Virus record (IMG/VR): IMGVR_UViG_3300038701_001382
Location: 1-38,525 of that record
Strand: one strand, 5' to 3'
Length of the DNA: 38,525 nucleotides
From: a virus
Notes under the pieces: model-generated
Databases searched by the model: none
Seen by the model: only the letters and a program-made list of their open reading frames with translations
What the model was told of the DNA's origin: nothing
Program-made: the position numbers and the translations under genes
Part shown: piece after piece, positions 17,460-37,114 of the stretch
Layout: each line of letters begins with the position of its first letter
Position numbering within the stretch: the first letter of the stretch is position 1

Positions 17460-17462
17460 AAA

Positions 17463-17538: not shown

Positions 17539-17826
17539 ATGAGTGAAGCTAAGTTTACTAAGGGCGAGTGGTGGGTAAATCACACTGGGAAACACCACAA
17601 CAACCCAGAGATATCTCAACACGAGATCTGCTACTCAAAAGAAGGTGAATGCGTAGTTGACCATGTATATGACGTTAATGACGCCCACCTAATAGCAGCG
17701 GCTCCAGAGATGTATGAAATGCTTAATAATATTCTAGATGAAAGGGTCGGAGTAGCTAAAAATGACTACGTGTTAGATGATGAAATTGAATCCTTACTAG
17801 CCAAGGCACGAGGTGAGCAACTATGA
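17539..17826 (+). CDS. small phage protein with AHLIAAAPEMYE motif
   Basis: 95 residues. The N-terminal FTKGEWWVNHTGK and the motif DAHLIAAAPEMYEMLNNIL are found in a widespread family of small phage accessory proteins whose function is unknown. It has an excellent GAGAGAGG-type Shine-Dalgarno (17522-17530) and its own promoter with operator repeats. It is the first gene of a three-gene cassette placed between two tail genes. The ATG of the next gene overlaps its stop. Confidence 0.75.
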   Translation: MSEAKFTKGEWWVNHTGKHHNNPEISQHEICYSKEGECVVDHVYDVNDAHLIAAAPEMYEMLNNILDERVGVAKNDYVLDDEIESLLAKARGEQL

Positions 17827-17957
17827 CCGAGCAAGAAATGTGGCAAGAAGCAAACGCAGCGAATCGTGAGTACCTAAATGGCAAATTCTCATGGTTCGAT
17901 TTTATGGCAATCGTTCGTGACTTAGCGGAGGCTGCAAAATGCAAGTCTGGAAAGTAA
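17823..17957 (+). CDS. small hypothetical protein
   Basis: 44 residues starting MTEQEMWQEANAANREYLNG, with a hydrophobic/aromatic centre (FSWFDFMAIVRDLAEAAK). Its ATG overlaps the preceding stop (CTATGA) and its end overlaps the following gene by 19 nt, so it fits a coupled cassette. It is too short for confident family assignment. Confidence 0.6.
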   Translation: MTEQEMWQEANAANREYLNGKFSWFDFMAIVRDLAEAAKCKSGK

Positions 17958-18103
17958 CCCTAGAGAAAAACGGCAAGCGCTGGGACTCGTACACTAGCGC
18001 AAAATGTAAGTGCGACGCAATACGTCAACTTGAATCCAAATACAACTGCGGCGCTAAGGTCATCAAAGCCGAGGTAAGCAAGAATAAGAAAGTGGAGTAC
18101 TAA
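17939..18103 (+). CDS. small basic hypothetical protein
   Basis: 54 residues, strongly basic, starting MQVWKVTLEKNGKRWDSYTS, with three cysteines (KCKCD and NCGAK). GGAG lies 10 nt before the start. The fold and function are not recognised; the lysines suggest nucleic-acid or protein binding. It ends the cassette, with its TAA inside the first TAACCA repeat of the next regulatory site. Confidence 0.6.
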   Translation: MQVWKVTLEKNGKRWDSYTSAKCKCDAIRQLESKYNCGAKVIKAEVSKNKKVEY

Positions 18104-18130
18104 CCACATAATAACCATCCATGCTACAAT
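18101..18130 (+). promoter_or_regulatory. extended -10 promoter with paired TAACCA repeats
   Basis: TAACCA at 18101 and 18112, spaced 11 bp, then an extended -10 TGCTACAAT (18122-18130). No -35 box is obvious, as allowed for TGn-type promoters. It drives the tail-tip genes after the accessory cassette. Confidence 0.62.
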
Positions 18131-18159
18131 AGCCCTATGTTAACGCGTAGGGCTTTTTT
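18131..18159 (+). terminator. terminator-like hairpin abutting the next start codon
   Basis: AGCCCTA (18131-18137) / TAGGGCT (18148-18154), 10-nt loop, T6 at 18154-18159, then ATG at 18160. A transcript from the -10 box at 18125 would start inside the left arm and so could not form the hairpin, whereas read-through from upstream could. Confidence 0.75.
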
Positions 18160-18543
18160 ATGGACACTGCAACAGTAACAGAGATTTCTAGCTACATACG
18201 AGATAATCGGGATACTCCTTTTGAATGGGGCTCATTTGATTGTTGCGTGTTCGTGGCAACTGCAATTAAAATTCAAACTAAGATTGATGTTTACAAGCCT
18301 TATTCCGGCAAGTACAAGACAGAGATTGGAGCGGCCAAGGCACTGAAGAGGTACGGTTCAATTGAAGATACCCTTGATAAGTACTTCGAGCGAATCAATC
18401 CGGCGCTTGCTGGTCGCGGTGACGTTCACATGCTAAGCAATGGAATAATGGCATTACAGTTCTCTGGCGGAAAATGGGCCACCACTGAAAGCGGAGTTTC
18501 AATCGTGAACGAAGAATCTACAATATGTTGGAGAATTAAATAA
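18160..18543 (+). CDS. tail assembly cysteine hydrolase-like protein (DUF6950/NlpC-P60-like)
   Basis: 127 residues. The motif TPFEWGSFDCCVFVATAI, with probable nucleophile Cys28, is the signature of the small NlpC/P60-like family that replaces lambda gpK in tail-tip operons. It may cut peptidoglycan during DNA entry or serve only in assembly. The segment AGRGDVHML (near residue 88) could carry the His. The ATG at 18160 gives the expected N-terminus, which supports this unusual start directly after hairpin plus T6. Its stop overlaps the ATG of the tail tip gene. Confidence 0.8.
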   Translation: MDTATVTEISSYIRDNRDTPFEWGSFDCCVFVATAIKIQTKIDVYKPYSGKYKTEIGAAKALKRYGSIEDTLDKYFERINPALAGRGDVHMLSNGIMALQFSGGKWATTESGVSIVNEESTICWRIK

Positions 18544-21218: not shown

Positions 21219-21267
21219 GGGGCGCGAGGGTGTAAAATACAAAATATCAATCAAGAGAGGTTACAAA

Positions 21268-23604
21268 ATGCCATTAGTAATATCAGGAAAATTGTCGCTA
21301 CCAGTAACAGGTCAGCCAGCATCAAACGCGCAAATTAGATTTAGAGCGGTGACAGCGGTCGGTGAAATAATTCCCGGCGCTGAATCCGTTGCTAGATGCG
21401 GCGCTGACGGAACGTATAGCATAAGCATTGAGTTTGCCCGCTACGAGCTGGCAACTAAGGTATCAACGCCAGAATTTAACATTCATGGTAATGTGACTAT
21501 TAACAGCGATACTCAAGCGTCAGATCTTGAGGACTTGATAACGCTTATTGGTGTAGCCCCATCGCTCAGTGATGAATTAATAAACAAGTTCAACACACTT
21601 ACCGCTAGGGCGGAAAAAGCCGCATCTGATGCAGAGAATAGCGCCCAGAGTGCGTCATCAGATGCTCAGAGCGCTAATGCATCTCTTACTGCTATCACTC
21701 CAATGTATCAGTATTTCAGCTCTAACTACCCTATATTTGAAACTAATTACAGTGACTTTCAGGTTAAGTACCCTGACGTTGTTTCAAAGCACGCAGAGGT
21801 GGTGACTCTTGCTGGAGAGACTGTTACCAATGCAGACTTGGCCGAGAAGTGGGCGACCAACCCGGAGGATTCACCGGTTGAGACGGGGAAATACTCAGCT
21901 CTGCATTGGGCTGAAAAGGCGAAATACAACGCCAATCAAACGTTTATTTCCGGCGGATTGTTTACCCCAACATCAAGCCAAGAATACCCGGATGTTAGCG
22001 CCGTTGTGCGTGACACCATCTGGATTATTGAGTTCTCATCCCACAATGACACTTACACATTTACTGGTGGGCAGTTATCAGGCGATACCGTAAAAAATGG
22101 TGATATGATCTTCTGGGACACTCCGCAAAATACATGGAGCATTATACCAACTTCAATTAGCGGCGTGTTGTCAGTAAATGGCAAGCCCGGACCTGCTCCA
22201 GTAATAACGGCTGCCGACATCGGAGCGCCAGCTTTAGACGGAGATAACAACATATCGGTAAATACCGTCAAAATGTCAAAGGATAGACATACCGGAATTA
22301 TACCTAGTTACGCCACAATACCATTCAGGAATAACACGACAAATGATAGTGAATTGAAGTTTGCCAACTTGGACACAGTAAAGTCATTCCTCAATTACTC
22401 AGGCGCTGACTTTGACATAACTGAACTTAAGTACTCAGGAGAAGTAAGGGCAGAAACAAGTGCGACAGGTCTTGATGTTAAAAATAATGGCGGCGTTGAG
22501 CTAATAGCGCACAATACAGCAAGCACAGATCCGGCAGATGTGCACGCTAGGACGTCCGCTGAAGGGTTTGTTTTGCGTCAGGCGGCAGATGCTGGATACT
22601 TAATCTCAACTGATGGTAGTGGGAATAACCCATTTACATCAATGAGATCTGTTAGAGGTGGCGCTTCTGAGTTGTGGCATAACAACACCAAGAGATTTGA
22701 AACCGCTGATTATGGCGCGCTAATCACAGGTGATTGCACCGTAGAAGGGCAGAGAATAAGCATTATAAATGCACTTAATGGCCCGGTGTTTTTTGCTATG
22801 GCATCTACAGATCAGGCGGTCAATAGGGGAATAAAGATAACCCAAGAAGCTAACGCTGTGGGCGCGGTTCAATCCACTTTAGGTGACGGGTCTCAGCCAA
22901 AAAGCCAAATAACTTGGACTTACGGTAGCGGTACAAGCTTGCACTACGATGATGACGCAAAAATATCTACCATAGAAACCGGGGTGTCAGTCAACGGTCA
23001 GGGCATTTTCACCCGCAACGGTGATGCAGTAACACTAAAGGGTACATTAAATGGAGTCTCAGCGGCTCCAATTCTAAGATACAAGCAGGGTGATAACTCT
23101 GATATTGGCTATATTGGTTATAGTTCGAGTAGCAACTCAGATCTTTATGTTGCAAATGGAATTGGAAACCTGCATCTATCACCGGTAGGTGCCACTTACA
23201 TCAATAATCCGGAGTCATTAAGCGCCCAAGGAAACACAGGTCCGTCATTGATTCGCAAGGATTACCTAGAGGATAGATTAACAATAAAAACGCTCTACTC
23301 TGGCAATGCTGCTAATGGGCAGACTATAACTGTAAACTCTGGAATATCAACAACCATAGATATACAGCTCACAGCAAAGGTAAACTATCCGAGCGCTAGC
23401 GAAGTGCATACGTTTAGTGTAAGTTTTGACAGTTCTATAATTTCTGTTGGCGAAAGTCTAAGAGTGCTATCAATAAACTCAGGTTCTGACAGTGCCGTCT
23501 TGTGGGTGGATATAGTTAGTGACACTCAACTATCCATAATATCGTCATCTTCTGGCGGATGGGCAGCGCCGGAGTTGGTGAAAGTTGGTGCGCATATAAA
23601 GTAG
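21268..23604 (+). CDS. tail fiber protein
   Basis: 778 residues. The N-terminal domain (MPLVISGKLSLPVTGQPASN, beta-sandwich) resembles modules that attach side fibers. It is followed by a coiled coil rich in Ala/Ser (TARAEKAASDAENSAQSASS, near 110-130) typical of trimeric fibers. EKWATNPEDSPVETGKYSAL then HWAEKAKYNA (about 192-221) is a known phage fiber motif. The rest is a long beta-rich shaft with a C-terminal tip that has no visible intramolecular chaperone motif. The start 21268 has AGAGAGG 7 nt upstream; the open frame before it is not used. A strong terminator follows the stop. Confidence 0.85.
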   Translation: MPLVISGKLSLPVTGQPASNAQIRFRAVTAVGEIIPGAESVARCGADGTYSISIEFARYELATKVSTPEFNIHGNVTINSDTQASDLEDLITLIGVAPSLSDELINKFNTLTARAEKAASDAENSAQSASSDAQSANASLTAITPMYQYFSSNYPIFETNYSDFQVKYPDVVSKHAEVVTLAGETVTNADLAEKWATNPEDSPVETGKYSALHWAEKAKYNANQTFISGGLFTPTSSQEYPDVSAVVRDTIWIIEFSSHNDTYTFTGGQLSGDTVKNGDMIFWDTPQNTWSIIPTSISGVLSVNGKPGPAPVITAADIGAPALDGDNNISVNTVKMSKDRHTGIIPSYATIPFRNNTTNDSELKFANLDTVKSFLNYSGADFDITELKYSGEVRAETSATGLDVKNNGGVELIAHNTASTDPADVHARTSAEGFVLRQAADAGYLISTDGSGNNPFTSMRSVRGGASELWHNNTKRFETADYGALITGDCTVEGQRISIINALNGPVFFAMASTDQAVNRGIKITQEANAVGAVQSTLGDGSQPKSQITWTYGSGTSLHYDDDAKISTIETGVSVNGQGIFTRNGDAVTLKGTLNGVSAAPILRYKQGDNSDIGYIGYSSSSNSDLYVANGIGNLHLSPVGATYINNPESLSAQGNTGPSLIRKDYLEDRLTIKTLYSGNAANGQTITVNSGISTTIDIQLTAKVNYPSASEVHTFSVSFDSSIISVGESLRVLSINSGSDSAVLWVDIVSDTQLSIISSSSGGWAAPELVKVGAHIK

Positions 23605-24420: not shown

Positions 24421-24468
24421 TTGACTTAACCGTTAGGTAACTATAATATAACGATAATTGAAATGCAA
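24421..24468. promoter_or_regulatory. divergent overlapping promoters with three operator repeats (switch region)
   Basis: Rightward: TTGACT 24421-24426, 17-nt spacer, TAATAT 24444-24449, for the regulator gene. Leftward: TTGCAT (complement of 24463-24468), 17-nt spacer, TATAGT (complement of 24440-24445), for 24053-24397. TAACCG 24427, TAACTA 24438 and TAACGA 24449 are spaced 11 bp and sit between the two -35 boxes, overlapping both -10 boxes. Confidence 0.8.
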
Positions 24469-24483: not shown

Positions 24484-24813
24484 ATGACTAAAAAGGTACG
24501 CATTCACCGCGATATGACAGAAGACGAAAAGCTAATTTCGGTTGAGCGCATGGTAGAGGTCGTTAACGCCGTTGGTGGACGTAAAAACCTTGAGATGTTG
24601 GTGCCCGGCTTATCCGCTCAAGAGATATCCAATGTGAAACAAAAGCAATACGTCAGCCCTCAGATTGCTATCCGCATTGAGAAGGCCTTACTTAAGCGAT
24701 ACGGCAGCGAAAATGAACTCGATCAGGAGCGGTATAAGAGGTTCACCAGATATTACTTTTGTCCCGATCTGACTGATTTGGACTTTGATCGTGTTGAATT
24801 GAGTATGCAATGA
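24484..24813 (+). CDS. small HTH-like transcription regulator
   Basis: 109 residues. Residues 26-68 (VVNAVGGRKNLEMLVPGL, then SAQEISNVKQKQYVSPQIAI) look like a lambda-repressor/YdaS-type helix-turn-helix, with SAQEISNVKQK as the probable recognition part. The rest is charged, ending in an acidic tail. ATG 24484 is chosen because GGAG lies 9 nt upstream. An in-frame ATG at 24463 overlaps the leftward -35 box and has no Shine-Dalgarno. Its own promoter carries the TAACTA-type repeats, so it is the best candidate for the regulator that reads these repeats across the genome. No CI-type cleavage domain is present. Confidence 0.65.
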   Translation: MTKKVRIHRDMTEDEKLISVERMVEVVNAVGGRKNLEMLVPGLSAQEISNVKQKQYVSPQIAIRIEKALLKRYGSENELDQERYKRFTRYYFCPDLTDLDFDRVELSMQ

Positions 24814-25870: not shown

Positions 25871-25994
25871 CCTCTATGTACTTTTTGCGAATCCATTCAC
25901 CAACATCCAAGACAACCTTTGCCATAGTGGCGTAGTTCTTAGCATCCTGAAGCCTGTCAGACCGCCATATCATATTCAGATACCATTCTTGCAT
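25857..25994 (-). CDS. small hypothetical protein, last gene of the leftward early operon
   Basis: 45 residues (MQEWYLNMIWRSDRLQDAKN at the start, then VVLDVGEWIRKKYIEEKGQ), helical and basic. The ATG overlaps the preceding stop (TAATG) and the stop lies in the loop of the bidirectional terminator, which suggests a real coupled gene. No function is recognised. Confidence 0.58.
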   Translation of the reverse strand: MQEWYLNMIWRSDRLQDAKNYATMAKVVLDVGEWIRKKYIEEKGQ

Positions 25995-26296
25995 TAGTTT
26001 CGCTCCAGTTCGTTAATAAATGCCGCACAGCACATTATGTGTGCTGAGTGTGGCAGCTTCGATTCAGGATCTATTGTCTCGCCTTTCTGAATTGCAAAGG
26101 CGTGTCTGAGTAAAGCAGCCCTGTAGCGCTCCAGCCCGCAATCCACATCTTGCCAAGAGTTTGCGGCGTACTTTTCAGCGCCGAACGTTAACACCTTAGC
26201 CATATCGTCTATGGCGCCAGCGGGTAACAGATCATAACGCGGTTTTTCTTGGTCGTATTTAAGGCCTTTTACTAGCTCCTTGTTATCGCTGCTCAT
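25994..26296 (-). CDS. dATP/dGTP diphosphohydrolase-like protein (DUF5664, MazG-like)
   Basis: 100 residues. The sequence KYDQEKPRYDLLPAGAIDDM followed by VLTFGAEKYAANSWQDVDC, then RYRAALLRHAFAIQKGETID and LPHSAHIMCCAAF is the complete signature of the DUF5664 (dGTP/dATP diphosphohydrolase N-terminal) family. Members hydrolyse purine dNTPs or belong to MazG-like nucleotide housekeeping. No PurZ-type gene accompanies it, so it is unlikely to serve a 2-aminoadenine genome. It may shape the dNTP pool for replication. It overlaps the genes on both sides by 1-4 nt. Confidence 0.85.
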   Translation of the reverse strand: MSSDNKELVKGLKYDQEKPRYDLLPAGAIDDMAKVLTFGAEKYAANSWQDVDCGLERYRAALLRHAFAIQKGETIDPESKLPHSAHIMCCAAFINELERN

Positions 26297-26580
26297 AATG
26301 ACGCTCCAATTTTTAGAAACTCGTCAGGTGATAAGCCACCAATACGAGACACGTTGTTTAATTGCTTCTGTAGCCATCCTAGCGGGAATATTTGCTTTCT
26401 TCCCTGCTGGCACACTGCTTTTATTCTAGGGCTGATTACGCGCGATTCCACGCATCTTAGAGTGTGCTTAATTGCCTTGTTTGGCTGCTTACTGTTGAAC
26501 TCAGCCGACAGTAAGCAACTAGTTAGCATGCTTGTGAACTCTTTCGCGTCGAGTTGCTTTTGCTCTGTTGTGATTGTCAT
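26293..26580 (-). CDS. hypothetical early protein
   Basis: 95 residues, basic, helical. The middle (SKQPNKAIKHTLRCVESRVI) and the segment KQIFPLGWLQKQLNNVSRIG are conserved-looking but not recognised. ATGA overlaps couple it to the adenine methyltransferase upstream and the nucleotide hydrolase downstream. It could be a DNA-binding accessory protein, judging from charge alone. Confidence 0.6.
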   Translation of the reverse strand: MTITTEQKQLDAKEFTSMLTSCLLSAEFNSKQPNKAIKHTLRCVESRVISPRIKAVCQQGRKQIFPLGWLQKQLNNVSRIGGLSPDEFLKIGASL

Positions 26581-27071
26581 TTCATTGAATCTCTATCAAT
26601 AAGGTGGACAGATTGTTTAACTGGCGATTTAGGATCGAATATGAACACTACCGATCCATTGTTGTTTCCGTTTACTGGCTTCTGTGTGTCTGCGTTGATG
26701 AAAGATAGTCGGCCTGATATAAAGTGACACTCTGTACAGTGCTCAAATGCCTTCTTAAACCATTTAACTGACGTATCAGCCGGGATGAGCATCACTGTTA
26801 AACATCCTCGCCTCATCTCTTCTACAGCCTTTTGCACCCATGGCATGATATCGCTGTATGGCTGGTTGCACCAATTACCCCAAATTGACCAATTGCTATT
26901 TAGCGCGTCGTCCTCCTGAGTTAGCCACATGTCGCAAAGCTTGTTCTGATCACTAGATGCAACGTCCATTTTCAAATCAAAACGCCTGTTGTAGAAATCA
27001 AACACAAACTTTGGGGTTTGCCATAGATCGCGAATCTCGGATGGTGTATTGCTTTTGTGTTCTGTGTTCAT
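26577..27071 (-). CDS. phage DNA N6-adenine methyltransferase (Dam family) with altered NPPY motif
   Basis: 164 residues, PF05869-type enzyme that methylates adenine in phage DNA, usually to evade restriction. Family landmarks are DLWQTPKFVFDFYNRRFDL at 15-33, MDVASSDQNKLCDMWLT, WGNWCNQPYSDIMPWVQKA near 65-83, MLIPADTSVKWFKKAFEHC and ISGRLSFINADTQKP. The catalytic motif normally reads (D/N)PPY; here it is NQPY, with Gln replacing the first Pro. The codon CAG is unambiguous in the sequence. The enzyme may still work, since the Asn and Tyr are kept, but activity must be regarded as uncertain. Confidence 0.86.
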   Translation of the reverse strand: MNTEHKSNTPSEIRDLWQTPKFVFDFYNRRFDLKMDVASSDQNKLCDMWLTQEDDALNSNWSIWGNWCNQPYSDIMPWVQKAVEEMRRGCLTVMLIPADTSVKWFKKAFEHCTECHFISGRLSFINADTQKPVNGNNNGSVVFIFDPKSPVKQSVHLIDRDSMK

Positions 27072-27075
27072 TCAC

Positions 27076-27201
27076 TTAATCTCTCTTAAATTTATGAAGA
27101 AGATGACCAAGGCCTCGGCGCTGATACCATTTTTTAGTTCGTGAGCGCTCACAATCCTGAAAGCGCTCGCTTAGTGTCTTTTTAGTAACAGTTGAGGTCA
27201 T
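27076..27201 (-). CDS. very basic small hypothetical protein
   Basis: 41 residues starting MTSTVTKKTLSERFQDCERS and ending HLLHKFKRD, with about a third Lys/Arg/His. The start lies inside the end of the 27182 gene and has GGAG 8 nt upstream. It fills what would otherwise be a gap before the Dam gene. High basicity suggests nucleic-acid binding. The inverted repeat with AGCGCT arms at 27143-27168 lies within its coding sequence. Confidence 0.52.
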   Translation of the reverse strand: MTSTVTKKTLSERFQDCERSRTKKWYQRRGLGHLLHKFKRD

Positions 27202-27364
27202 ACAGGCGCTCCAGTTCTTTATCTTCTCGGCGTTGCTCAATGATTCGATGAGCGGCCATGCGTGAATAATCTTCTTTACTTGGCATTGTCAGGCCTTTGT
27301 TTCTAGATCTCTTAGATGAGCTGGTTCGATTTATAACAAAGTTGCGGAATTCTTGATTATTCAT
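27182..27364 (-). CDS. small basic hypothetical protein
   Basis: 60 residues (MNNQEFRNFVINRTSSSKRS, then a helical charged end IIEQRREDKELERLYDLNCY). It overlaps the preceding methyltransferase-like gene by 8 nt with GAGG upstream of the start, so it is coupled. No known family is recognised. Confidence 0.58.
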   Translation of the reverse strand: MNNQEFRNFVINRTSSSKRSRNKGLTMPSKEDYSRMAAHRIIEQRREDKELERLYDLNCY

Positions 27365-27842
27365 TTTTCATAGCCTCATTTTTCATAAATACGATCCAGT
27401 GCGTTTTCTGTTGCTTACCGCTACGGTGTCCAATCATTGGTCGGTATGGAGAAAGCGCCACTATTTCAGATGTTAGTATCTGGTCTTCATTCCACTTAAA
27501 AATTAGAACTCCGTCATGCTCAAGGACTCTAAAGCACTCGCTAAACATCTCAGCAAGATAAGGCTTAAATTCCTTTGGAAGTTTGCCGTATTTCAGAAAT
27601 GTCCAAGACTTCTCGCCTACGTTCTTTAGGTGAGGAGGATCTAGCACGACTATTTTAAATTGCCCATCCGAAAAGCTTAGATTTGTAAAATCACCGATTA
27701 CGTCAGGATCTACAACTAACTGACGCCCATCACAAAGAGTTGTTTCAATGCTTCTCTTGTCATGAAATACAGTAAGCGGATTTTCTTTATCAAACCAAAA
27801 CATTCGAGATCCGCAACATGCATCTAAGGTATTTTTATTCAT
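27357..27842 (-). CDS. class I SAM-dependent methyltransferase, phage type
   Basis: 161 residues. LDACCGSRMFWFDKENP at 6-22 holds the SAM-binding motif I, followed by DKRSIETTLCDGRQLVVDPD, the catalytic-type motif VVLDPPHLKN (D-P-P-H) near 65-74, and a conserved end HRSGKQQKTHWIVFM. This very regular family is found in many siphophages and is annotated as a DNA or unspecified methyltransferase. Its substrate is not known. Together with the Dam-like gene it suggests two modification activities. The C-terminus is a short tandem repeat MKNEAMKNE. Confidence 0.85.
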   Translation of the reverse strand: MNKNTLDACCGSRMFWFDKENPLTVFHDKRSIETTLCDGRQLVVDPDVIGDFTNLSFSDGQFKIVVLDPPHLKNVGEKSWTFLKYGKLPKEFKPYLAEMFSECFRVLEHDGVLIFKWNEDQILTSEIVALSPYRPMIGHRSGKQQKTHWIVFMKNEAMKNE

Positions 27843-28113
27843 TACCTAGCACCTCATCGATTTGCTGAACAAAGCCACGATACATTTCTAGTTGCTCTAC
27901 TGGCGTTCCTTCTGGTGCGTGCTCGATAATGCCCTCGAAGAATGCCCGGTGATTGCATAGCATTTCAGCCATTGCGTCGTGCGTGTTGATTGCGTGTTCA
28001 GCCGCTTCAAATGGTGCAACTCCATCATTTTGCTCATCAACCATGCAGAATCTATTAATTCGCATAACGTCGCCTTGGCCTACTGGTAAATTAAAGTATT
28101 TACTCATCAACAT
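27835..28113 (-). CDS. small early protein, first gene after the 28143 promoter
   Basis: 92 residues, acidic, with the motif AEHAINTHDAMAEMLCNHRA reminiscent of the AHAINNHD-type segment common in small phage proteins of unknown function. AGAGAGG lies 6 nt before ATG 28113. It is the promoter-proximal gene of the leftward methyltransferase/nucleotide operon. Confidence 0.62.
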   Translation of the reverse strand: MLMSKYFNLPVGQGDVMRINRFCMVDEQNDGVAPFEAAEHAINTHDAMAEMLCNHRAFFEGIIEHAPEGTPVEQLEMYRGFVQQIDEVLGNE

Positions 28114-28142
28114 AAAAACCTCTCTTAATTGTGGGGTGCGCT

Positions 28143-28184
28143 TAACTATGGGGTAACTATAAAATAACTAGATTATGTGTACAA
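28143..28184 (-). promoter_or_regulatory. leftward promoter with three perfect TAACTA repeats
   Basis: Minus-strand TTGTAC (complement of 28179-28184), 17-nt spacer, TATAGT (complement of 28156-28161). TAACTA occurs at 28143, 28154 and 28165, all exact and spaced 11 bp, covering the -10 box. This is the cleanest copy of the operator in the genome. Confidence 0.85.
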
Positions 28185-28190
28185 GCTTTT

Positions 28191-28532
28191 TCATAGAGAA
28201 TCTATAGAAAAATTTGTGCTGTTTTGCTGTGCTTGATATTCCATTTGGTTATAAGCTTCTATTGCTGGCTTCATGATCTTGTCGCGCTCATCATCTAGGC
28301 AGCGTTTAACGAAATGGCGTAATCTGGTGTTTGCTGCCTTTCGTGCTGCGTTCTCTTTTTTATGTTCTACGTCCTGTAGCGTGAAAGCTTCCGTATAAGC
28401 TTGTGAGTATCCAACGCACGCAGTAATACGATGCTGTGGCTTTAACTTTAAAAGCTGCTCAGACAACCAAACAGCATCCCTATCGCTGTGATTAACTGGC
28501 AGTGTTACTTGTGGTTTGTTGTAGTAGCTCAT
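28191..28532 (-). CDS. hypothetical early protein
   Basis: 113 residues starting MSYYNKPQVTLPVNHSDRDA. Helical and charged, with LSEQLLKLKPQHRITACVGY and a basic helix KKENAARKAANTRLRHFVKR. This may be a DNA-related accessory or antitermination-type protein, but no family is recognised. ATG 28532 overlaps the VRR nuclease stop (ATGA), with GAGGTG upstream, so it is preferred over the in-frame start 18 nt earlier. It is the last gene before the 28143 promoter region. Confidence 0.62.
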   Translation of the reverse strand: MSYYNKPQVTLPVNHSDRDAVWLSEQLLKLKPQHRITACVGYSQAYTEAFTLQDVEHKKENAARKAANTRLRHFVKRCLDDERDKIMKPAIEAYNQMEYQAQQNSTNFSIDSL

Positions 28533-28936
28533 CTCTGCACCTCTAGCCATGTGTTAAATGCTTCCTTTAGTCCTTCGCATCCGAAAGCAACGCCGATAAA
28601 TGCACCTTTATCCTTGGCGTTTAGCAGGTATTCTTGCTGCCCTTTCTGCCATTGCGACTTTTTGTGATCTTGTCTTTTTAGCTCTACAACGAACGTCGGA
28701 CAGCCCGGTATGATGCAATCGCTGGCTCCGGTAGGTATTCCTCCAGTTCTTGATTCATAGTTGACTTGATTGTGTTTGCGCTTACCCTCGTTCTTTGGGT
28801 GTATGAATAGCGCACGATAGTCAGGGTGATTATGCTTGAGCCACGACACGAAATTGATTTGCTCTACATCCTCTGTCGGGCAGTCACCGCGGTAACTCAT
28901 GTCGCCAAACACTGGTATTTGTGGGTTAACTTTCAT
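28529..28936 (-). CDS. VRR-NUC domain nuclease
   Basis: 135 residues. PD-(D/E)XK-type virus replication-repair nuclease. Landmarks are EDVEQINFVSWLKHNHPDY, FIHPKNEGKRK, the GIPTGASDCIIP loop bearing the catalytic Asp, and FVVELKRQDHKKSQWQKGQQ with the E-x-K pair. The family acts on DNA junctions or flaps in phage replication and recombination. Shine-Dalgarno AGGTG. It follows SSB after a minus-strand terminator and lies with the RecE-like exonuclease and helicase genes. Confidence 0.88.
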   Translation of the reverse strand: MKVNPQIPVFGDMSYRGDCPTEDVEQINFVSWLKHNHPDYRALFIHPKNEGKRKHNQVNYESRTGGIPTGASDCIIPGCPTFVVELKRQDHKKSQWQKGQQEYLLNAKDKGAFIGVAFGCEGLKEAFNTWLEVQR

Positions 28937-28947
28937 ATTTCACCTAG

Positions 28948-28969
28948 AAAAAAGGCGACCGAAGCCGCC
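28948..28969 (-). terminator. minus-strand terminator between SSB and VRR nuclease genes
   Basis: On the minus strand GGCGGC TTCG GTCGCC (complement of 28954-28969) followed by six T (28948-28953). UUCG loop. No promoter is seen between it and 28936, so it probably attenuates rather than isolates downstream genes. Confidence 0.82.
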
Positions 28970-28979
28970 TGTGTAGCTA

Positions 28980-29453
28980 TTAGAATGGTGGGGTGTCGTC
29001 ATCAGAATAATTGTATTGAGGCTGGCTTTGACTCTGTGTTTGCTGCTGTTGTGGCTGCTGCGGTTGCCCCCACCCTCCATGCTGCTGTTGGCGTGATTGC
29101 GATTGCGAGCCTGTCATTTCGCTAACCGGTAAGGCTCCTTCAAGTCTTGGGTTTTCCATAATCATTGTGACGTAAGTGACGCCGCTATCAGCTTGAAATA
29201 GTTCAGCCTTTAGCTTTTCTGATGCAACGGTAACAAAAGATCCTTCCTCGAATGCTTTTGAGTAAAAGTCATTAGCACCCTGAGTTTTAGCAAAGAACAT
29301 TGCTTTGTAGTTCGTGTATGTTTTCTCTTCTGTTCGGTAGTCCTTGATCACCTCAGCAAGTTCGATGATATACATTGTTGATTGCCCGTCTTGCCCAACT
29401 CCCGGCTTTACAAATGGCTGCTTTCTTAGTTTTCCGCTAACTACATGAGTCAT
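28980..29453 (-). CDS. ssb: single-stranded DNA-binding protein
   Basis: 157 residues. N-terminal OB-fold part to about 110 (AMFFAKTQGANDFYSKAFEE), then a Gln/Ser/Gly-rich linker, and an acidic tip ending DDDTPPF. This is nearly the bacterial SSB tip (DDDIPF) that docks replication and repair partners, so the protein may recruit host factors. It coats single strands in phage replication and recombination. Neighbours are the recombination genes. A possible promoter with operator-like repeats lies just upstream (29481-29515). Confidence 0.88.
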   Translation of the reverse strand: MTHVVSGKLRKQPFVKPGVGQDGQSTMYIIELAEVIKDYRTEEKTYTNYKAMFFAKTQGANDFYSKAFEEGSFVTVASEKLKAELFQADSGVTYVTMIMENPRLEGALPVSEMTGSQSQSRQQQHGGWGQPQQPQQQQTQSQSQPQYNYSDDDTPPF

Positions 29454-29480
29454 GTTATTGCTCTCTATTCTGTGGGGTTT

Positions 29481-29515
29481 TGATTATAGCATGGTTAGCA
29501 AATAGTTAACCATGC
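29481..29515 (-). promoter_or_regulatory. operator-like region upstream of ssb, palindrome plus 11-bp repeats
   Basis: GCATGGTTA (29489-29497) and TAACCATGC (29507-29515) form a perfect inverted repeat with 9-nt centre. TGATTA 29481, TGGTTA 29492 and TAGTTA 29503 recur at 11-bp spacing (reverse orientation of TAACTA). A TATAAT lies on the minus strand (complement of 29483-29488), with only a weak -35. Confidence 0.6.
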
Positions 29516-29522
29516 ATTTTGT

Positions 29523-30101
29523 TTACTCTTCGTCGCCGTCAGCTACCACCGGGGCAGCCTCTTGTAATCGCTTATACTGCTCTTCCGTTAGTTGACCGGT
29601 TCTCTGGCATTGCGCGACGATTTGCTCTAGGCTTTTGCCCTCATTCATCCAGCTAACCATAGTTTCAAATCCCGCGTTAAACTTATCCTCCGGGTAGGTT
29701 GGCAACTCCATAGATAAATAACCTACCGGGTAAGGAACTCGCTTTTGTCTGTTCAGTGTCAACATAAACGCCATACCGTTAGTGTTGATATCAGACAGCG
29801 CACGAACTCGAATTCCGCCAACCTCTTTCCCGGCGTAAATAACACTAGAATCCATGTACAACTGTGCGGATTTTCCGATCCAGTTCGCAGATTCATTCCC
29901 CCATGCTGCAGCAAGAATACGAATCATGCCCTTGCTTGGCTTCCATGGTCGGTTGTTGTCGCCATTAAAGTAGATAGACACTGGTTGATCGCCTTGACGC
30001 ACCACTACATCACGAATGGTGATGATAGGCTCACACCCCATGATATCCACAGCGTTGAGCTGATCAGACTTTGCTTGCATTGCTTGTGATACATCAGCCA
30101 T
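29523..30101 (-). CDS. conserved phage protein of the recombination module
   Basis: 192 residues. The stretch VSIYFNGDNNRPWKPSKGMI, followed by RILAAAWGNESANWIGKSAQ, LYMDSSVIYAGKEVGGIRVR and the C-terminal LEQIVAQCQRTGQLTEEQYK, belongs to a family often found beside phage exonuclease and SSB genes. Its function is not established; a recombination-mediator or annealing role is a guess from context. It overlaps the exonuclease stop by one base. The acidic C-terminus (VVADGDEE) resembles partner-docking tails. Confidence 0.65.
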   Translation of the reverse strand: MADVSQAMQAKSDQLNAVDIMGCEPIITIRDVVVRQGDQPVSIYFNGDNNRPWKPSKGMIRILAAAWGNESANWIGKSAQLYMDSSVIYAGKEVGGIRVRALSDINTNGMAFMLTLNRQKRVPYPVGYLSMELPTYPEDKFNAGFETMVSWMNEGKSLEQIVAQCQRTGQLTEEQYKRLQEAAPVVADGDEE

Positions 30102-30982
30102 TAGATAATACCTCCATCTTCTAATTCATTCTCATAGGCAGCCAATGCCCAATTTGGTAAAGAGATCATTTGCGAGTCTTGCGCGTAACAATCCCATTTT
30201 TCAGTATTTAAACAGTCAGCGTATGTGTTTAGGTTTTTGCGGTACGCTTCACGTCCAATGTGCAATGAGCCATCATCAAGATAGTACACGCCAACGCCGT
30301 GACATGGCTTTTCCTCTACAGCGATAAACTTCATACCCTTTAGTCGTTCGCCAGTAATCCACTCGTACTGATCAAGGTAGAAAGCGGCTTGAACGTGGTA
30401 TCGGTAGTTCGCAACTGATTTGCTAAAACCTTCAGCGCTAGCATCTTGCGTTTTCTTTAGGTCAACCGCCCATCCGTCAACAATTGCCAATCTATCAAAG
30501 CGGTGACGACACAGTACGCCAGTAATGGGATCGCGAACGATGCCTGATAACTCACTGTAACCGTCTTGCTCGAGTAGTCGGCGAGCTTCTGGGTGTGCAT
30601 AAACCGCCTTTTGCATGTCCGCAATGTGCTGACAATCGCTACCAGTAAACACCTTTTCCTCTCCGTAAACCTCCTTAGCTTTGCGGTACTCTGCCTGTCT
30701 GCGGTCCTTGATTTCAGGCAGCATCATGTATTCACGACTGAACACTTCAGGCTCTAGTATTGCCGCGTGAATGGCACTGCCCATTTGCATTGGGCGAGTC
30801 TGCACTATTGGCACTTTGTATTTGTAATGTGCCGGGCTGCGCTCAATCAGATCTAGTCCAGTTTTAGAAATACCCTCTAGTGAGTGATAGGTACTGTTTG
30901 GCATATTGGCGTAGTAGTGACCTGTAGTTAGATCGATTTCGGAAATGCCCTCTCTACCATCTAGTAAATTAAGTTTTTTCAC
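30101..30982 (-). CDS. RecE-like PD-(D/E)XK exonuclease (DUF3799 family)
   Basis: 293 residues. Exonuclease that makes 3-prime tails for recombination. Motifs: ISKTGLDLIERSPAHYKYK near 35-53, MQMGSAIHAAILEP, SGIVRDPITGVLCRHRFDRL with the first catalytic acidic residue, and WAVDLKKTQDASAEGF with the D-x-K pair, then YRYHVQAAFYLDQYEW. This is the PDDEXK_DUF3799 (RecE C-terminal-like) family. The GTG at 30982 is preferred since AGAGG lies 8 nt before it; another GTG occurs three codons earlier. No RecT homologue is clearly seen; the 29523 protein could be the partner. Confidence 0.85.
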   Translation of the reverse strand: MKKLNLLDGREGISEIDLTTGHYYANMPNSTYHSLEGISKTGLDLIERSPAHYKYKVPIVQTRPMQMGSAIHAAILEPEVFSREYMMLPEIKDRRQAEYRKAKEVYGEEKVFTGSDCQHIADMQKAVYAHPEARRLLEQDGYSELSGIVRDPITGVLCRHRFDRLAIVDGWAVDLKKTQDASAEGFSKSVANYRYHVQAAFYLDQYEWITGERLKGMKFIAVEEKPCHGVGVYYLDDGSLHIGREAYRKNLNTYADCLNTEKWDCYAQDSQMISLPNWALAAYENELEDGGII

Positions 30983-31005
30983 TTTTAACACCTCTGTTAG
31001 CTAGT

Positions 31006-31055
31006 TGGTTCACTATACACAGACAGTGAACCATTTGCAAACTATAAAATAACTA
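31006..31055 (-). promoter_or_regulatory. leftward promoter with palindromic operator and upstream repeats
   Basis: Minus-strand TTGCAA (complement of 31035-31040), 17-nt spacer, TATAGT (complement of 31012-31017). The spacer and -10 carry a perfect inverted repeat TGGTTCACT (31006) / AGTGAACCA (31025-31033). TAACTA-type repeats GAACCA 31028, AAACTA 31039 and TAACTA 31050 are 11 bp apart; the last forms a second TATAGT (31041-31046) with a poor -35. Confidence 0.72.
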
Positions 31056-31058
31056 TAT

Positions 31059-33029
31059 TTATGATTGTTCCATTTCAGAGCGTAGAATTAGCTTTCCTAC
31101 AATCGACTCACCTTTGTCATTCTTGCGGTGAGTGATAGCGCCGATAGTGTCCAGAGTGTTGCTCAATCCACACAATTCACCGGCGTTTCTAGCCTTTCTT
31201 ACCGCAGCTTTTAGTGCTGTTGTGTTAGCGTGGTGCTTGGTGAGTTTGTTGTAGAAAATGCGCTGAGCTGTCTTGTTCTCGCTAAACGGCGAATAGAAGT
31301 TGCTAGCAATTTCTCCATTCGGAAGGTGGTATTCCACAATAACCCCATTGTTAGGCGTTGGTCTCATGGTAAAGCGCTCTACTGGCTTAAACTCGTTCGA
31401 GCTATACGCCTTACGAAGTAGCTTTTCATTTGGGTCAATCAGTGTGTTATCACAACAGCGGCAACTTCTTGCGGTAGGTGCATTCTCAGCGCCACAGCCA
31501 TGATTTACTATGCGTCCATTGATGCGGAACGGTTCACAAATGCGCGATTTCCAGAAGAAATCACAACGATCACCGCCTACATGTCCACGGCAACGAACCG
31601 CGTATTTACTGTTCATCTCGCCACACTTAGGGCATTCGATCAGGTCATTTGCATCGTGTGCCTTGCTGTAATCTGCATCTTCTAGAATTGGGTCATCATA
31701 CAGATCTTTAAGCTCCATTAGGGTATCGCTGTAATCCAGAACCAAACAGTCGCTTTTAATCACCCCGGCGTCTATTTGGAAATCCTTTAGCAGACGCAAG
31801 CCTCGCCCGATAAGCTGCACTAGAAGCGTTAGAGAGCCGATTTTGCGTAGTATTACAATGGTGTCAATTAGCGGAATGTTGACGCCAGTAGTAAGGCACC
31901 CGATTTGTAGTAGGTACTTAATTTCGCCCCGGTAGGCTTTATCTAGTGCTTCCTTGCGTTTCTTGGTGCTCATCTCTTCAGTGATGATCTCAAAGCTGCC
32001 TTCAGGCAAGAATCGCGACGCCTCTTTACAGTGCTTTTTCCCTGCGCACGTGATTAGCACACAGTTGCGTGCTTTGGTCTTTTCCATTACCTCAATCATT
32101 ATCTTCTCAGTGGCGGTCTCCGCCTGAACCATGAGCCTTTCCATCTGGCGCATCTGTTCGGTGGTAAAATCTTGCGCGCCGTCATTCCCTTCACTTCTGA
32201 ATTCAGACAGATCGTAACCTACATCATCATGGGCAAATCCGAACGTACAAGGAACAAGGTAGCCCTTGTTTGTTAGGTATTCCTGACTAATGTCGCACAG
32301 ACGAGCGCGCCAAAAGTAGCCATCATCACCGCATAAATCTATCGGCGTCTCCTTCTTTGCTTCTAGGTAGAATTCACCGACTGGTACAGGAAGGATTGGC
32401 TTTACCCCTCGGTAGTCAGTCCCAGTCAGCCCGATAATTCTGACCTTTGGGTTGCGGCGCTTTAACTCAGCTATGATCTTCATGTACTGACTTTCTGGCT
32501 CATCGAACGAAACCATGTGACATTCATCAATAGGAACTAGATCAAACGAAATGCCGTGTAGTTTTGATGGATTGTAGACTTTGCCTGCCTCAATGTTTAC
32601 ACCTAGGTATCCATCAGGTAGAACACCGCAAGCGATATCGTATTTGATATCATTCTCAAGGCTGCGCCACACTGTGCCCTCGCTACCAAGTATAACCGGG
32701 TATGCTGTTGACTTAATGCCAAGTGACGCGCTGTAAATGCTGTTCTTGCACTCAGCCAGCCAGCAATCATCGGCGTCTTGGGCAATTATTTCACCCTGTC
32801 GACTTAGTACCAATACGCGGCCATTGCGATCGGAAACGTGCTTACAAAGCCCTGCTATAATAACCGTCTTACCTGCACCAACCGACGCTTTGACAACCGC
32901 TGGGGCGTCACTTGATTTTACGTGCTCTATAATGCGGTTGAATGCATATTGCTGATAAGGTCGGTTAGTAAGCTTACCAAATGTCATACATTGCTCTGTA
33001 GGCAACTCCAAATGTTCAAATTTGTTCAC
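31059..33029 (-). CDS. superfamily 2 DNA helicase with zinc-finger region
   Basis: 656 residues. DEAD/DEAH-type helicase: YQQYAFNRII, Walker A SVGAGKT at 49-55, DECH at 168-171, GLTGTD motif III near 209, helicase C-terminal domain with TTGVNIPLIDTIVI and motif VI QLIGRGLRLL near 433. Then a Cys-rich block (CPKCGE, VRCRGH, CDFF, HGCGAENAP, CRCCD) forming zinc-ribbon-like sites, and a C-terminal tail. Likely unwinds DNA in phage replication or recombination. The start is GTG 33029, given by the AGAGGTGTTACC leader; the open frame upstream overlaps the 33040 gene and is not used. Confidence 0.88.
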   Translation of the reverse strand: MNKFEHLELPTEQCMTFGKLTNRPYQQYAFNRIIEHVKSSDAPAVVKASVGAGKTVIIAGLCKHVSDRNGRVLVLSRQGEIIAQDADDCWLAECKNSIYSASLGIKSTAYPVILGSEGTVWRSLENDIKYDIACGVLPDGYLGVNIEAGKVYNPSKLHGISFDLVPIDECHMVSFDEPESQYMKIIAELKRRNPKVRIIGLTGTDYRGVKPILPVPVGEFYLEAKKETPIDLCGDDGYFWRARLCDISQEYLTNKGYLVPCTFGFAHDDVGYDLSEFRSEGNDGAQDFTTEQMRQMERLMVQAETATEKIMIEVMEKTKARNCVLITCAGKKHCKEASRFLPEGSFEIITEEMSTKKRKEALDKAYRGEIKYLLQIGCLTTGVNIPLIDTIVILRKIGSLTLLVQLIGRGLRLLKDFQIDAGVIKSDCLVLDYSDTLMELKDLYDDPILEDADYSKAHDANDLIECPKCGEMNSKYAVRCRGHVGGDRCDFFWKSRICEPFRINGRIVNHGCGAENAPTARSCRCCDNTLIDPNEKLLRKAYSSNEFKPVERFTMRPTPNNGVIVEYHLPNGEIASNFYSPFSENKTAQRIFYNKLTKHHANTTALKAAVRKARNAGELCGLSNTLDTIGAITHRKNDKGESIVGKLILRSEMEQS

Positions 33030-33039
33030 GGTAACACCT

Positions 33040-33297
33040 CTAAAATTTAAATGCTTCTTGAGGCCTCTTTGAGCGTGAGCCTCGTTTTGCTGCTGGTTGT
33101 TTGTACTTAAAACCGGCATTTTCTTGCTGCGCTAGTTGTCCGGCATAGTTGCAACAGTCCCGAAACGGATCTTTTGAGTTGCATAGTTGTTCTTGATAGT
33201 ACTCGGATGATTTTCGCCCATAGTAGGCTGCACGACTCTCGTGCAACCCCTGACGAATAAGTTCTTTCTTAACTTCCTGCTCAATAAATTTCTTCAT
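33040..33297 (-). CDS. small basic hypothetical early protein
   Basis: 85 residues. Helical N-terminus (MKKFIEQEVKKELIRQGLHE), two cysteine pairs in the centre (QLCNSKDPFRDCCNYAG), and a basic C-terminal tail (KYKQPAAKRGSRSKRPQEAF) suited to nucleic-acid binding. It overlaps the beta-clamp-like gene by 4 nt (ATGA) and precedes the helicase, so it is probably a replication accessory protein. No family is recognised. Confidence 0.62.
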   Translation of the reverse strand: MKKFIEQEVKKELIRQGLHESRAAYYGRKSSEYYQEQLCNSKDPFRDCCNYAGQLAQQENAGFKYKQPAAKRGSRSKRPQEAFKF

Positions 33298-33848
33298 ATT
33301 CTGACCATCATGATTATGTGTTTAGCGTCAAACTCTGGACTAATGAGGCCTACACAGACCTTGCTGTCATCGTAGTATTCAAAAACCCCGGCGTTCAATT
33401 GTGATTCTAGAGCGCTCCCTATCTTCTTAACGTCGGCAACGTAATCAAGGTTAAGCCCTATTTGACTCATTGATTTTGGCTCACCTGTCGGGATGACTCT
33501 CTTGTATTTCGGGAAAATGCCGTCAATAACTTCAAACCTGATAACCTTGTTTAGCTTGGACATGAGTCTGTTTGTAAATAAGATGACGCCTGAATTGTCA
33601 TTAAGGTAAACAAACTCGGCCTCGATTGCTGAAGCTGGCACGCTGCCTAGTATCTTAAAAATTTCTGGCTTCATGCTATCTAGGTCTGATTTGCTTTTGG
33701 GGGTGATAATGGTCATTCTGTGTCCGTCTGTTGACACCAGCTTACCATCGCCAATAAGCATTCCATTTAGGTAGTAGCGTATGTCATTTTTTGCTGTAGT
33801 GATTGATGCTGCTTTAAGTCCGCGAGCGTCTATTTTGAATGATTTCAT
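33294..33848 (-). CDS. truncated beta sliding clamp (DnaN) homologue, possible clamp mimic
   Basis: 184 residues, about half of a bacterial beta clamp (about 366). It begins where E. coli domain 2 begins: DIRYYLNGML at 22-31 (E. coli RYYLNGML), LVSTDGHRM at 37-45 (VATDGHRL), IFPKYKRVIP at 111-120 (FPDYRRVLP). It then jumps directly to IGLNLDYVADVKK (130-142), matching E. coli GFNVSYVLDV. It ends MMVRI, like VMPMRL. So domain 1 and the first half of domain 3 are missing, while residues equivalent to the protein-binding cleft (L155, T172, G174, H175, R176, P242, R246, V247, N320, Y323, 360-366) are kept. The start 33848 has AGAGG 9 nt upstream. The DnaN homology is firm; the mimic role is inferred. 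Confidence 0.82.
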   Translation of the reverse strand: MKSFKIDARGLKAASITTAKNDIRYYLNGMLIGDGKLVSTDGHRMTIITPKSKSDLDSMKPEIFKILGSVPASAIEAEFVYLNDNSGVILFTNRLMSKLNKVIRFEVIDGIFPKYKRVIPTGEPKSMSQIGLNLDYVADVKKIGSALESQLNAGVFEYYDDSKVCVGLISPEFDAKHIIMMVRI

Positions 33849-33869
33849 TGGTAACACCTCTAAATTGAC

Positions 33870-33931
33870 AAGGGCAAATTCACCCTTAACTGAACAATAA
33901 CTATTAAATAACTATAATTGAATGATGTCAA
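33870..33931 (-). promoter_or_regulatory. strong leftward promoter with three operator repeats and leader hairpin
   Basis: Minus-strand TTGACA (complement of 33926-33931), 17-nt spacer, TTTAAT (complement of 33903-33908). TAACTG 33887, TAACTA 33898 and TAACTA 33909 are 11 bp apart, covering -10 and spacer. Just downstream AAGGG/CCCTT (33870-33874 / 33883-33887) can pair in the leader of the clamp-like gene. Confidence 0.85.
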
Positions 33932-33947
33932 GAAAACTTTTTAGATA

Positions 33948-34805
33948 TCAGATCGCCAACTGCCTTTTTTTTAGCTCATCACTAACTTCATTCCTGTCGT
34001 CTGACTCATCAACAAGTGGCATGTCATCTTTACTATCAAGTATCCCGCTTGTGTTTTTTATTATTCCCCTGTTGTACATCCAAGCCGTATTCTCATAGCT
34101 AAACGTAACCCGTACCTCTTGACCTGTCTTGTACCAGTGATGATATGCAGTGATTACGCTACTGGTCCACGCAATACCGTCAGTCATCCTAGCTTCACAC
34201 CGGGGTATTAGGTGCCATGAGCCGTATGAGATGCCGTTAGCTAAATACTTGATGCCATCGTTGGTAATGCACGCAATATTCACAATTGCACCGTTCTCGT
34301 TAATCAGGTCGAACGCCGGGGCTCCTAATGCAGTAACACGGCAATCATAAGGCGGTTGAACGCCGTACATATTAAACGCTGGATGCTTCTGTATTATCGG
34401 CATGCTTTCCCATACATCCACGGCGTTATCCCTTTGCTTGTGGTCTGCCGGGGTGGTGCGCTTTTGCTTGGTAGCTACCTTATGCTCAACTCGCCTCAAG
34501 TCCTCCGTAGAAACGCCACCAATGAAGTCGCCAATATCCTTGACCAGATCAGAGAACGAAATACCAGTGCATGACATGATGACGTCTTCCGGCGATTTCA
34601 TGCTATCAGCGGCACAGCTACGACAAAACAGTGCCAGCCGTCCGTCTTCTTCTCTCCAGTGAGCTCTATCATCACCGCCACAGCATGGGCATGGATGGTT
34701 TACTGAGTTCTTACCGCGCATCTTTGGAACTTCAATTCCGTACAAACCTAGTATTTCCTCCCAACGGTCAACCAAGTACGGCTCTAGGCTTCTGTAGTCA
34801 ATCAT
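33948..34805 (-). CDS. primase, P4/phage type zinc-binding with degenerate Toprim region
   Basis: 285 residues. N-terminal zinc-binding primase domain: HPCPCCGGDDRAHW at 37-50 and LFCRSCAAD at 59-67. Then FSDLVKDIGDFIGG and a linker, and a region like the P4 alpha primase core (GAPAFDLINENGAIVNIACI, then GIKYLANGISYGSWHLIP near 191-208). The following Toprim-like stretch (ARMTDGIAWTSSVITAYHHW) lacks the usual E-G-x-x-D-A pattern, so catalysis may be weak or shared. It is coupled by ATGA to the small gene 34802, and lies next to the DUF3987 ATPase. Together they look like a split primase-helicase. Confidence 0.8.
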   Translation of the reverse strand: MIDYRSLEPYLVDRWEEILGLYGIEVPKMRGKNSVNHPCPCCGGDDRAHWREEDGRLALFCRSCAADSMKSPEDVIMSCTGISFSDLVKDIGDFIGGVSTEDLRRVEHKVATKQKRTTPADHKQRDNAVDVWESMPIIQKHPAFNMYGVQPPYDCRVTALGAPAFDLINENGAIVNIACITNDGIKYLANGISYGSWHLIPRCEARMTDGIAWTSSVITAYHHWYKTGQEVRVTFSYENTAWMYNRGIIKNTSGILDSKDDMPLVDESDDRNEVSDELKKRQLAI

Positions 34806-34993
34806 AGGAAGTACCTTTTCGCCAGCTCCTCACAAGCAATTATCAGCTCATCTTCAAGGTGGTAGTGATATAGCGGCTTTCTTGTTTTCTTCATGTAAGC
34901 TACGTTTTCCTGAATTATTTCCACATCACTTATGCTGTACTCATAAATGATATGCTCGTTCCATTCATTCCATTTTTTGCTGTTCCTCTTCAT
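34802..34993 (-). CDS. small hypothetical protein between primase and ATPase genes
   Basis: 63 residues, charged and aromatic (MKRNSKKWNEWNEHIIYEYS then HYHLEDELIIACEELAKRYF). Small, helical, with ATGA overlap to the primase gene and a 3-nt gap after the ATPase gene. Probably a replication-module accessory. Function is not recognised. Confidence 0.6.
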   Translation of the reverse strand: MKRNSKKWNEWNEHIIYEYSISDVEIIQENVAYMKKTRKPLYHYHLEDELIIACEELAKRYFL

Positions 34994-34996
34994 CCA

Positions 34997-36379
34997 TTAA
35001 CCCCTGTAGATAAACGTTTCGCGTGAACCGTTGATGCGCTTCTCTATGATTCCTTTTGACAGTAGTGAATTCATAGCATCGTCGATTTTGTTCCTTGCGT
35101 TCTTGCCGTGCTGCTTGAAAATGTCGTGCTTGACTAGTGCGTCCTTTATCTGGCGCATAGTTTTTCCAGATATGCCTTTTGCGTTGTTGGCCATGTAGTC
35201 CTCAAGCTTGCTTATTTCAACATTCTTGCCTGAAATGCCCTTCTCCTCACAAAGGCTAACCATTCCCATTAGGATTGATTTCACTACAGCTATCGCTATT
35301 GTCATTGTGTCCTTGTCGATCTCTTTGTTTTCGTCGTAACCCTCCATTACGTGAATGGTGGCGGCTACCTTGTACATTTGGAAAGCCATCTTCGACCATA
35401 TGCCACGGAATAGGCTGGTTGAGTATTTCTCTCCATCAGCCAGACTTGGCTCAATATCAATCATTTGATTAATAACCAGTCTATAAGCCTCTTTGCTGAT
35501 TCTTATCATGGCGAGATCTTCAATCCCGGTCTTTTTAATCCGGTTAGTTATGATTGAGGCAATATTGTTGAAATCGTTAATTTTGTCGTAGGTTCCAGCT
35601 CCGTACATTTCAGGGTTTCTAGTGCCGAACATGTTCCCCTCAAGTATCATCAGAAAGCGCTCACAAAGCCCTGTGCCGTCCGATTTCTTTAAGACCATAT
35701 CTATCACGCCTTCTTGGCTTATCGCTATCATGCTTCCGTGAGGCTTGCCGAAAAAGCCGCTTCGACTAACACGGTCTGAAGCGTGCCACTCGCCATTGAA
35801 GCCTTTAAGTATAATGTCCTTGTTTGACTGGCCATCACTGTAAGCGCCACCAATCATCGTTTTAATCAATCCTTGCTCGGTACTACATAGAGCAAACAAT
35901 CCATTGGTCTTTGTCATTGACTCGTCAACCGCTTCCGGCGTTGGATCTGTCATTGGTAGCCTTAGCATTTGGTTTTCTGCAAGCTCCTTGAGTTCATAAT
36001 CATCAAGGTCGCCCTTTTTGTCCTTCTCTGACTTGGCGATTTGCTTCCTAACCTCTTCGCGCTTCTTGTTTATCTCTGATATTGAGTTCATGAAGCCTTC
36101 TTGAAGACACTCGAGCGTTGAGGTTTTGGCTGAACCCGGCGGTTGCTCTCCAAGCACATACAAGCCGACAGGCATTCTGCTGTTACTTGTTCCCTTTGAT
36201 ACGCAGTAAGCGGTGCTGCATATCTGACTAGCAACGCCGATAGCAATTAGCGTTGTTGTCTCTAGCGGGAACTGGTTGTTGTTTGACGCCTCTCTCGCTG
36301 CGTCTCCGATTACTGTGCCTTTCATGAATGCGCTAATGTAAGCGCTTGATTCTGGTTTGTTGATAGCCTTCTTGGACAT
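34997..36379 (-). CDS. DUF3987-family replicative ATPase (primase-helicase partner)
   Basis: 460 residues. The Walker A-like GEQPPGSAKT at 77-86 is followed by a charged coil (KKREEVRKQIAKSEKDKKG), then the DUF3987 signature DPTPEAVDESMTKTNGLFAL near 143-162 with CSTEQGLIKTM (acidic Walker B-like), GFNGEWHASDRVSRSG and a C-terminal winged-helix-like region (ISGKTMRQIKDALVKHDIF). Family members act as helicase-like partners of P4-type primases. It starts with GAGAGG upstream and lies close to the origin-like repeats, so it is the best candidate for the initiator helicase. Confidence 0.85.
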   Translation of the reverse strand: MSKKAINKPESSAYISAFMKGTVIGDAAREASNNNQFPLETTTLIAIGVASQICSTAYCVSKGTSNSRMPVGLYVLGEQPPGSAKTSTLECLQEGFMNSISEINKKREEVRKQIAKSEKDKKGDLDDYELKELAENQMLRLPMTDPTPEAVDESMTKTNGLFALCSTEQGLIKTMIGGAYSDGQSNKDIILKGFNGEWHASDRVSRSGFFGKPHGSMIAISQEGVIDMVLKKSDGTGLCERFLMILEGNMFGTRNPEMYGAGTYDKINDFNNIASIITNRIKKTGIEDLAMIRISKEAYRLVINQMIDIEPSLADGEKYSTSLFRGIWSKMAFQMYKVAATIHVMEGYDENKEIDKDTMTIAIAVVKSILMGMVSLCEEKGISGKNVEISKLEDYMANNAKGISGKTMRQIKDALVKHDIFKQHGKNARNKIDDAMNSLLSKGIIEKRINGSRETFIYRG

Positions 36380-37079: not shown

Positions 37080-37114
37080 TTGCACTCTGGATAAATATAG
37101 TTATTATGTAGTTA
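37080..37114 (+). promoter_or_regulatory. rightward promoter with two TAGTTA repeats
   Basis: TTGCAC 37080-37085, 16-nt spacer, TATTAT 37102-37107. TAGTTA at 37098 and 37109 are 11 bp apart, the reverse orientation of the TAACTA operator. It drives the right-end genes. Confidence 0.68.

Follow-up and report, generated by a model that had tools for sequence, protein, structure and literature searches.

TAACTA direct repeats at 11-bp spacing lie on predicted promoters across the genome of a Vibrio-type siphophage

Mycobacteriophage L5 has many asymmetric stoperators over its genome that are served by one phage protein, the immunity repressor of a temperate phage, and these are single 13-bp sites, many of them away from promoters. 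The operators of phage 186 Apl are six-base direct repeats 10 to 11 bp apart, at which the protein acts cooperatively and represses the two promoters that they overlap (PMC7498355). YdaS of CP-933P represses two divergent promoters that it covers (PMC8630535), and the ArcA boxes of enterobacteria comprise two to five direct repeats spaced 11 bp apart, often lying over sigma-70 promoters (PMC3798270).

We analysed a 38.5-kb virus record (IMGVR_UViG_3300038701_001382, 38,525 nucleotides, hereafter the window) that carries siphophage genes and belongs to a Vibrio-type phage. No integrase or CI-like repressor was found among the genes scanned in the window, nor did it give tRNAs or Rfam matches. 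Its nearest annotated phage is Vibrio phage K396 (OZ196344; L044), which is collinear with it and has proteins ∼35 to 80% identical. Vibrio phages 1.181.O, P23, and pYD38-B and Plesiomonas phage phiP4-7 were also compared and have only some replication, tape-measure, or accessory genes in common with the window. Searches of viral_contigs and genome_contigs by helicase, regulator, or major tail protein confirmed no close relative, and a sequence search of the PDB gave no relevant match.

The closest known mode is that of Apl, together with P2 Cox and lambda Xis-type proteins: the window likewise has six-base sites as 11-bp direct repeats that overlap promoters (Table 1). Apl sites, however, form two clusters (pR-pL and attP) and Apl is also an excisionase, whereas in the window arrays of two to three units stand at about ten promoters and the genes scanned gave no integrase. 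As with the L5 stoperators, many asymmetric sites across the genome would serve one proposed phage repressor, but here they are arrays at promoters. What is new is that one such operator extends over about ten promoters, which belong to early, accessory, and structural genes.

Table 1. Repeat arrays, associated promoter elements, and gene regions of the window, with the matching positions in K396
Feature	Window position	Strand	Predicted promoter	K396
terS/terL, portal, protease, and capsid genes	135-5764			
Possible further operator TAACCATGAATTAACTG, end of protease gene	4453-4469	+		3781
Three units TACCTA, TAACTC, TAACTA; the last covers the -10	12879-12906	+	Leftward, accessory operon: TTGACG(12926-12931)-17-TATAGT(12903-12908)	15218
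Putative operator pair over -10	12936-12952	+	Rightward, major tail protein gene (12967)	15264
Tail genes	12967-23604			
Putative operator triple between tail gene with terminator and cargo gene 17539	17463-17490	+	TTGAAT(17480-17485)-17-TATAGT(17503-17508)	19987-20030
Weak pair TAACCA/TAACCA before gene 18160, doubtful	18101-18117	+		None
Triple common to divergent promoters	24427-24454	+	Rightward, candidate regulator: TTGACT(24421-24426)-17-TAATAT(24444-24449); leftward: TTGCAT(24463-24468)-17-TATAGT(24440-24445)	29016-29044, same TTGACT-17 and TATAGT-17 geometry
Candidate binder, 109 aa, weakly Cro/YdaS-like helix-turn-helix	24484-24813	+		Start agrees with orthologue
Replication genes	25994-36379	Mostly -		
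Three perfect TAACTA over promoter	28143-28170	+	Leftward: TTGTAC(28179-28184)-17-TATAGT(28156-28161)	32538-32585
Units before ssb gene, doubtful	29481-29508	-		None
Units overlapping -35 region	31028-31055	+	Leftward, exonuclease: TTGCAA(31035-31040)-17-TATAGT(31012-31017)	35846-35875
Triple in spacer and -10	33887-33914	+	Leftward: TTGACA(33926-33931)-17-TTTAAT(33903-33908)	38447
Perfect pair over promoter	37098-37114	-	Rightward, gene 37141: TTGCAC(37080-37085)-16-TATTAT(37102-37107)	41636

Direct reading of the sequence confirmed the three perfect TAACTA copies at 28143, 28154, and 28165 from which the preliminary description had started. The exact form TAACTA-N5-TAACTA occurs at five sites in the window, and with up to two mismatches at 20, against 3.6 ± 1.8 in shuffled sequence (maximum, 9). 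The excess is specific to the 11-bp spacing: of all exact same-strand pairs at distances of 1 to 60, five are 11 bp apart, one is 22 (the triple), and one is 59, with none at the other distances, and when up to one mismatch is allowed there are 11 sites at spacing 11 versus one at spacing 10 and none at spacing 12.

Pairs of the seven-base unit TAACTA(T) were also scored with a matrix trained on this window only, at thresholds of 12 and 14 bits. The window holds 16 pairs at either threshold (0.97 and 0.28 expected, respectively) and the reversed-sequence control holds none, a count that is to some extent circular, since these very sites served to train the matrix. The independent test is therefore K396, in which the same matrix finds 18 pairs at 12 bits (0.80 expected) and 13 at 14 bits (0.12 expected). 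The four other phages show 0 to 3 pairs each at 12 bits and no clear excess; the counts in P23, three at 12 bits (1.07 expected) and one at 14 bits (0.20 expected), make its excess at most slight.

The sites are mainly intergenic, as had been claimed, with 15 of the 16 in the window mostly between genes against 7% expected by area. For K396 the figure is 10 of 18 against 5%, and several of the others lie in tiny annotated frames or gene ends. For eight of the ten places listed beforehand, K396 has an array at the corresponding position; those at 18101 and 29481, the weakest, have no counterpart and may not belong. The outermost units are weak at 12879, 31028, and 29481, and the last region can also be read as an inverted repeat of 11 bp (29489-29515) with the score of a terminator-like hairpin. 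The statement that no repeats precede terS or occur in the head gaps does not quite hold, since terS is preceded by a weak pair at 80-97 (11.7 bits), and the possible operator TAACCATGAATTAACTG, which lies inside the protease gene near its end and ∼80 bp before the capsid gene, is identical in K396. Around it (4440-4470) ∼30 bases are identical to K396, codon third positions included, and TTGACG-17-GAAAAT in front of it is possibly an internal capsid promoter.

By their sequence, the arrays sit on predicted host sigma-70 promoters. Among 18 TATAGTTA octamers in the window and K396, 10 have a TTG exactly 17 bp upstream and none has one at 15, 16, 18, or 19 bp, so the -10 hexamer itself is part of a repeat unit; the 22 other TATAGT copies, without the following TA, show no peak of TTG spacing. 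Other arrays fall on the spacer and a shifted -10 (33887 and 37098) or on the -35 (31028). Repeat orientation relative to transcription is mixed, the position differs among promoters, and divergent promoters are served by arrays at two places, 12879/12936 and 24427. At 12936 the pair stands 46 bp away from the strong one at 12890, a distance identical in K396 (15218 to 15264). The genes that follow 17463 and 33887 are unrelated between the two phages, and those that follow 31028 are barely alike; arrays at the same gaps before differing genes thus indicate that the promoter-operator stays in place as the cargo is exchanged. The proposal that one operator links accessory, replication, and tail promoters draws good support from the chance tests, the intergenic bias, the conservation in K396, and the promoter geometry. 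Separately, the exonuclease promoter lies within an inverted repeat, GGTTCACT...AGTGAACC (31012-31035), possibly a second operator.

We think it fairly probable that the arrays are operators of a phage-encoded, autoregulated repressor, probably the product of gene 24484-24813. Each TAACTA(T) unit would be one recognition word, and two to four units, 11 bp apart on one helix face, would be bound head to tail and, we infer, cooperatively. Because the units fall on the -10 box (TATAGT-TA), the spacer, or the -35 of what look like ordinary sigma-70 promoters, a bound protein would exclude RNA polymerase. On entry all promoters would be free, and as the candidate protein builds up, it would lower the activity of early, accessory, and tail promoters together. 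Temporal control does not usually involve operators common to early and tail promoters, which counts against a repressor.

Activators of the CII or PhoB type usually bind at a fixed place and in one orientation, beside a poor -35 or substituting for it, whereas a steric repressor tolerates mixed orientation, varying position, and divergent promoters, which an activator normally does not. The arrays do not show a fixed position and orientation at promoters with a weak -35: at most sites the repeats overlap a -10 that has a good TTG -35 exactly 17 bp away, and they run in both directions over -10, spacer, or -35. The mixed orientation, varying positions, and divergent pairs therefore favor a repressor, as judged from geometry, and the PhoB/OmpR- or CII-type mode first suggested for the repeats becomes less likely than repression by a Cro/Apl-like protein. 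An activator encoded by the phage (CII, MotA, or PhoB-like) and switching on a promoter class at a set time would suit the array at 31028, which lies both on the -35 and upstream of it, a classic activator place, and PhoB/OmpR-family sites are typically 11-bp direct repeats (PMC3798270), but overall we regard such an activator as unlikely.

The best candidate for the binder of the proposed repressor operators is the gene 24484-24813 product. The array before the gene covers its own promoter and a divergent one, both geometries being kept in K396, and transcription from one of these two covered promoters would make the gene autoregulated. The K396 orthologue is 50% identical, with an identical QEISN block in the putative recognition helix. 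No orthologue was found outside K396 and its near-twin K394. Among the phages examined the protein is present only in the two with arrays, a co-occurrence that amounts to one independent relative.

We regard this product as a probable helix-turn-helix protein, with weak similarity to YdaS/Cro. It matches the Pfam YdaS/Cro family PF15943 at 16.8 bits (E = 0.006), below the curated cutoff of 30, and hhalign against YdaS/Cro/DicC over the helix-turn-helix region gives P = 0.0024 and a probability of 12%, a score that exceeds all 60 of 60 column shuffles and is the top one among 19 shared small proteins. Identity to YdaS/Cro proteins is 22% over 45 residues. A structure predicted for the window protein alone, of low confidence (mean pLDDT, 51), resembles mostly XRE/Cro-type proteins at a Z of about 5, and Foldseek with this model returned no E under 2.6. 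Homologue searches gave four weak matches in 395 genomes, all in long unrelated frames, and none in plasmids. The setting resembles that of YdaS/Cro in the lambdoid prophages Rac and CP-933P, where a small gene stands beside a divergent pair, here a putative helix-turn-helix gene with the pair under an array, but the window protein is distant, has no CI/CII neighbors that we could see, and would have its sites across the whole genome. For most Cro-type proteins the target is an inverted rather than a direct repeat, which counts against the 24484-24813 protein as the binder.

A repressor regulon might instead be run by another phage protein, such as the 59-amino-acid product of 8982-9161, which is common to the window and K396 and was not found in the other relatives compared. 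We rate this as improbable because the product is unlike the Cro/YdaS profile and has only a subthreshold Pfam match, and no operator adjoins its own gene.

Binding by a host regulator such as ArcA appears very unlikely. The window repeats equal ArcA boxes in spacing and multiplicity, lie over sigma-70 promoters as these do, and have the GTTA core in common with them (PMC3798270, PMC7303359), but the word of ArcA, an OmpR-family host regulator, is TGTTAA, whereas that of the window is TAGTTA. The window arrays depart from the consensus TGTTAA-N5-TGTTAA (PMC7303359): none of 12 GTTA-N7-GTTA pairs in the window has a T before either GTTA, and TGTTA-N6-TGTTA is absent. A host regulator would also sit poorly with the absence of a clear array excess in the four phages sharing replication genes, three of which are on Vibrio.

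An effect of composition (AT-rich promoter DNA with TATAGT -10 boxes) or remnants of copied promoter cassettes could draw on the -10 box belonging to the unit and on near-copy arrays around a K396 cargo gene (6378 and 7454), but is scarcely credible given the shuffles, the 11-bp specificity, the units outside -10 boxes, and the arrays at matching gaps in phages widely diverged elsewhere. ParR partition-type iterons were set aside, given the promoter location of the sites and the failure to find a partition gene.

Contigs from sequence collections with the exact 17-base or triple-repeat patterns were apparently unrelated to the window. In L071 many arrays occur together with local tandem repeats and a gene for a single-subunit RNA polymerase-like protein, and two near-identical arrays but no related proteins occur in L027/L042.

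An extended form of the phage-repressor reading, possible though rather doubtful, is that in a lytic siphophage one autoregulated Cro-like protein polymerizes on 11-bp repeats in the -10 boxes of nearly all promoters, new cargo genes arriving with, and being wired in by, ready-made promoter-operator cassettes. If the phage-repressor reading itself is right, it would provide a compact genome-wide brake for a Vibrio phage and a simple sequence code predicting promoters, and it would show how phages without a CI-type switch can coordinate early, accessory, and structural genes and take up cargo genes under existing control.

Some further features of cargo and accessory regions were seen. The near-identical K396 arrays at 6378-6426 and 7454-7482 lie on both sides of a queuine tRNA-ribosyltransferase gene, as if the cargo had been inserted at, or had brought along, a promoter-operator cassette. 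The array at 33887 stands before gene 33294-33857; a Pfam match that falls short of the cutoff (E = 1.4e-4) likens its product to the DNA polymerase III beta clamp in the central domain, at odds with its best PHROGs family, which is labeled RusA-like. Two PAPS-reductase-like genes lie side by side at 9500-11268 in the window, the second 82% identical to a gene of Vibrio phage P23.
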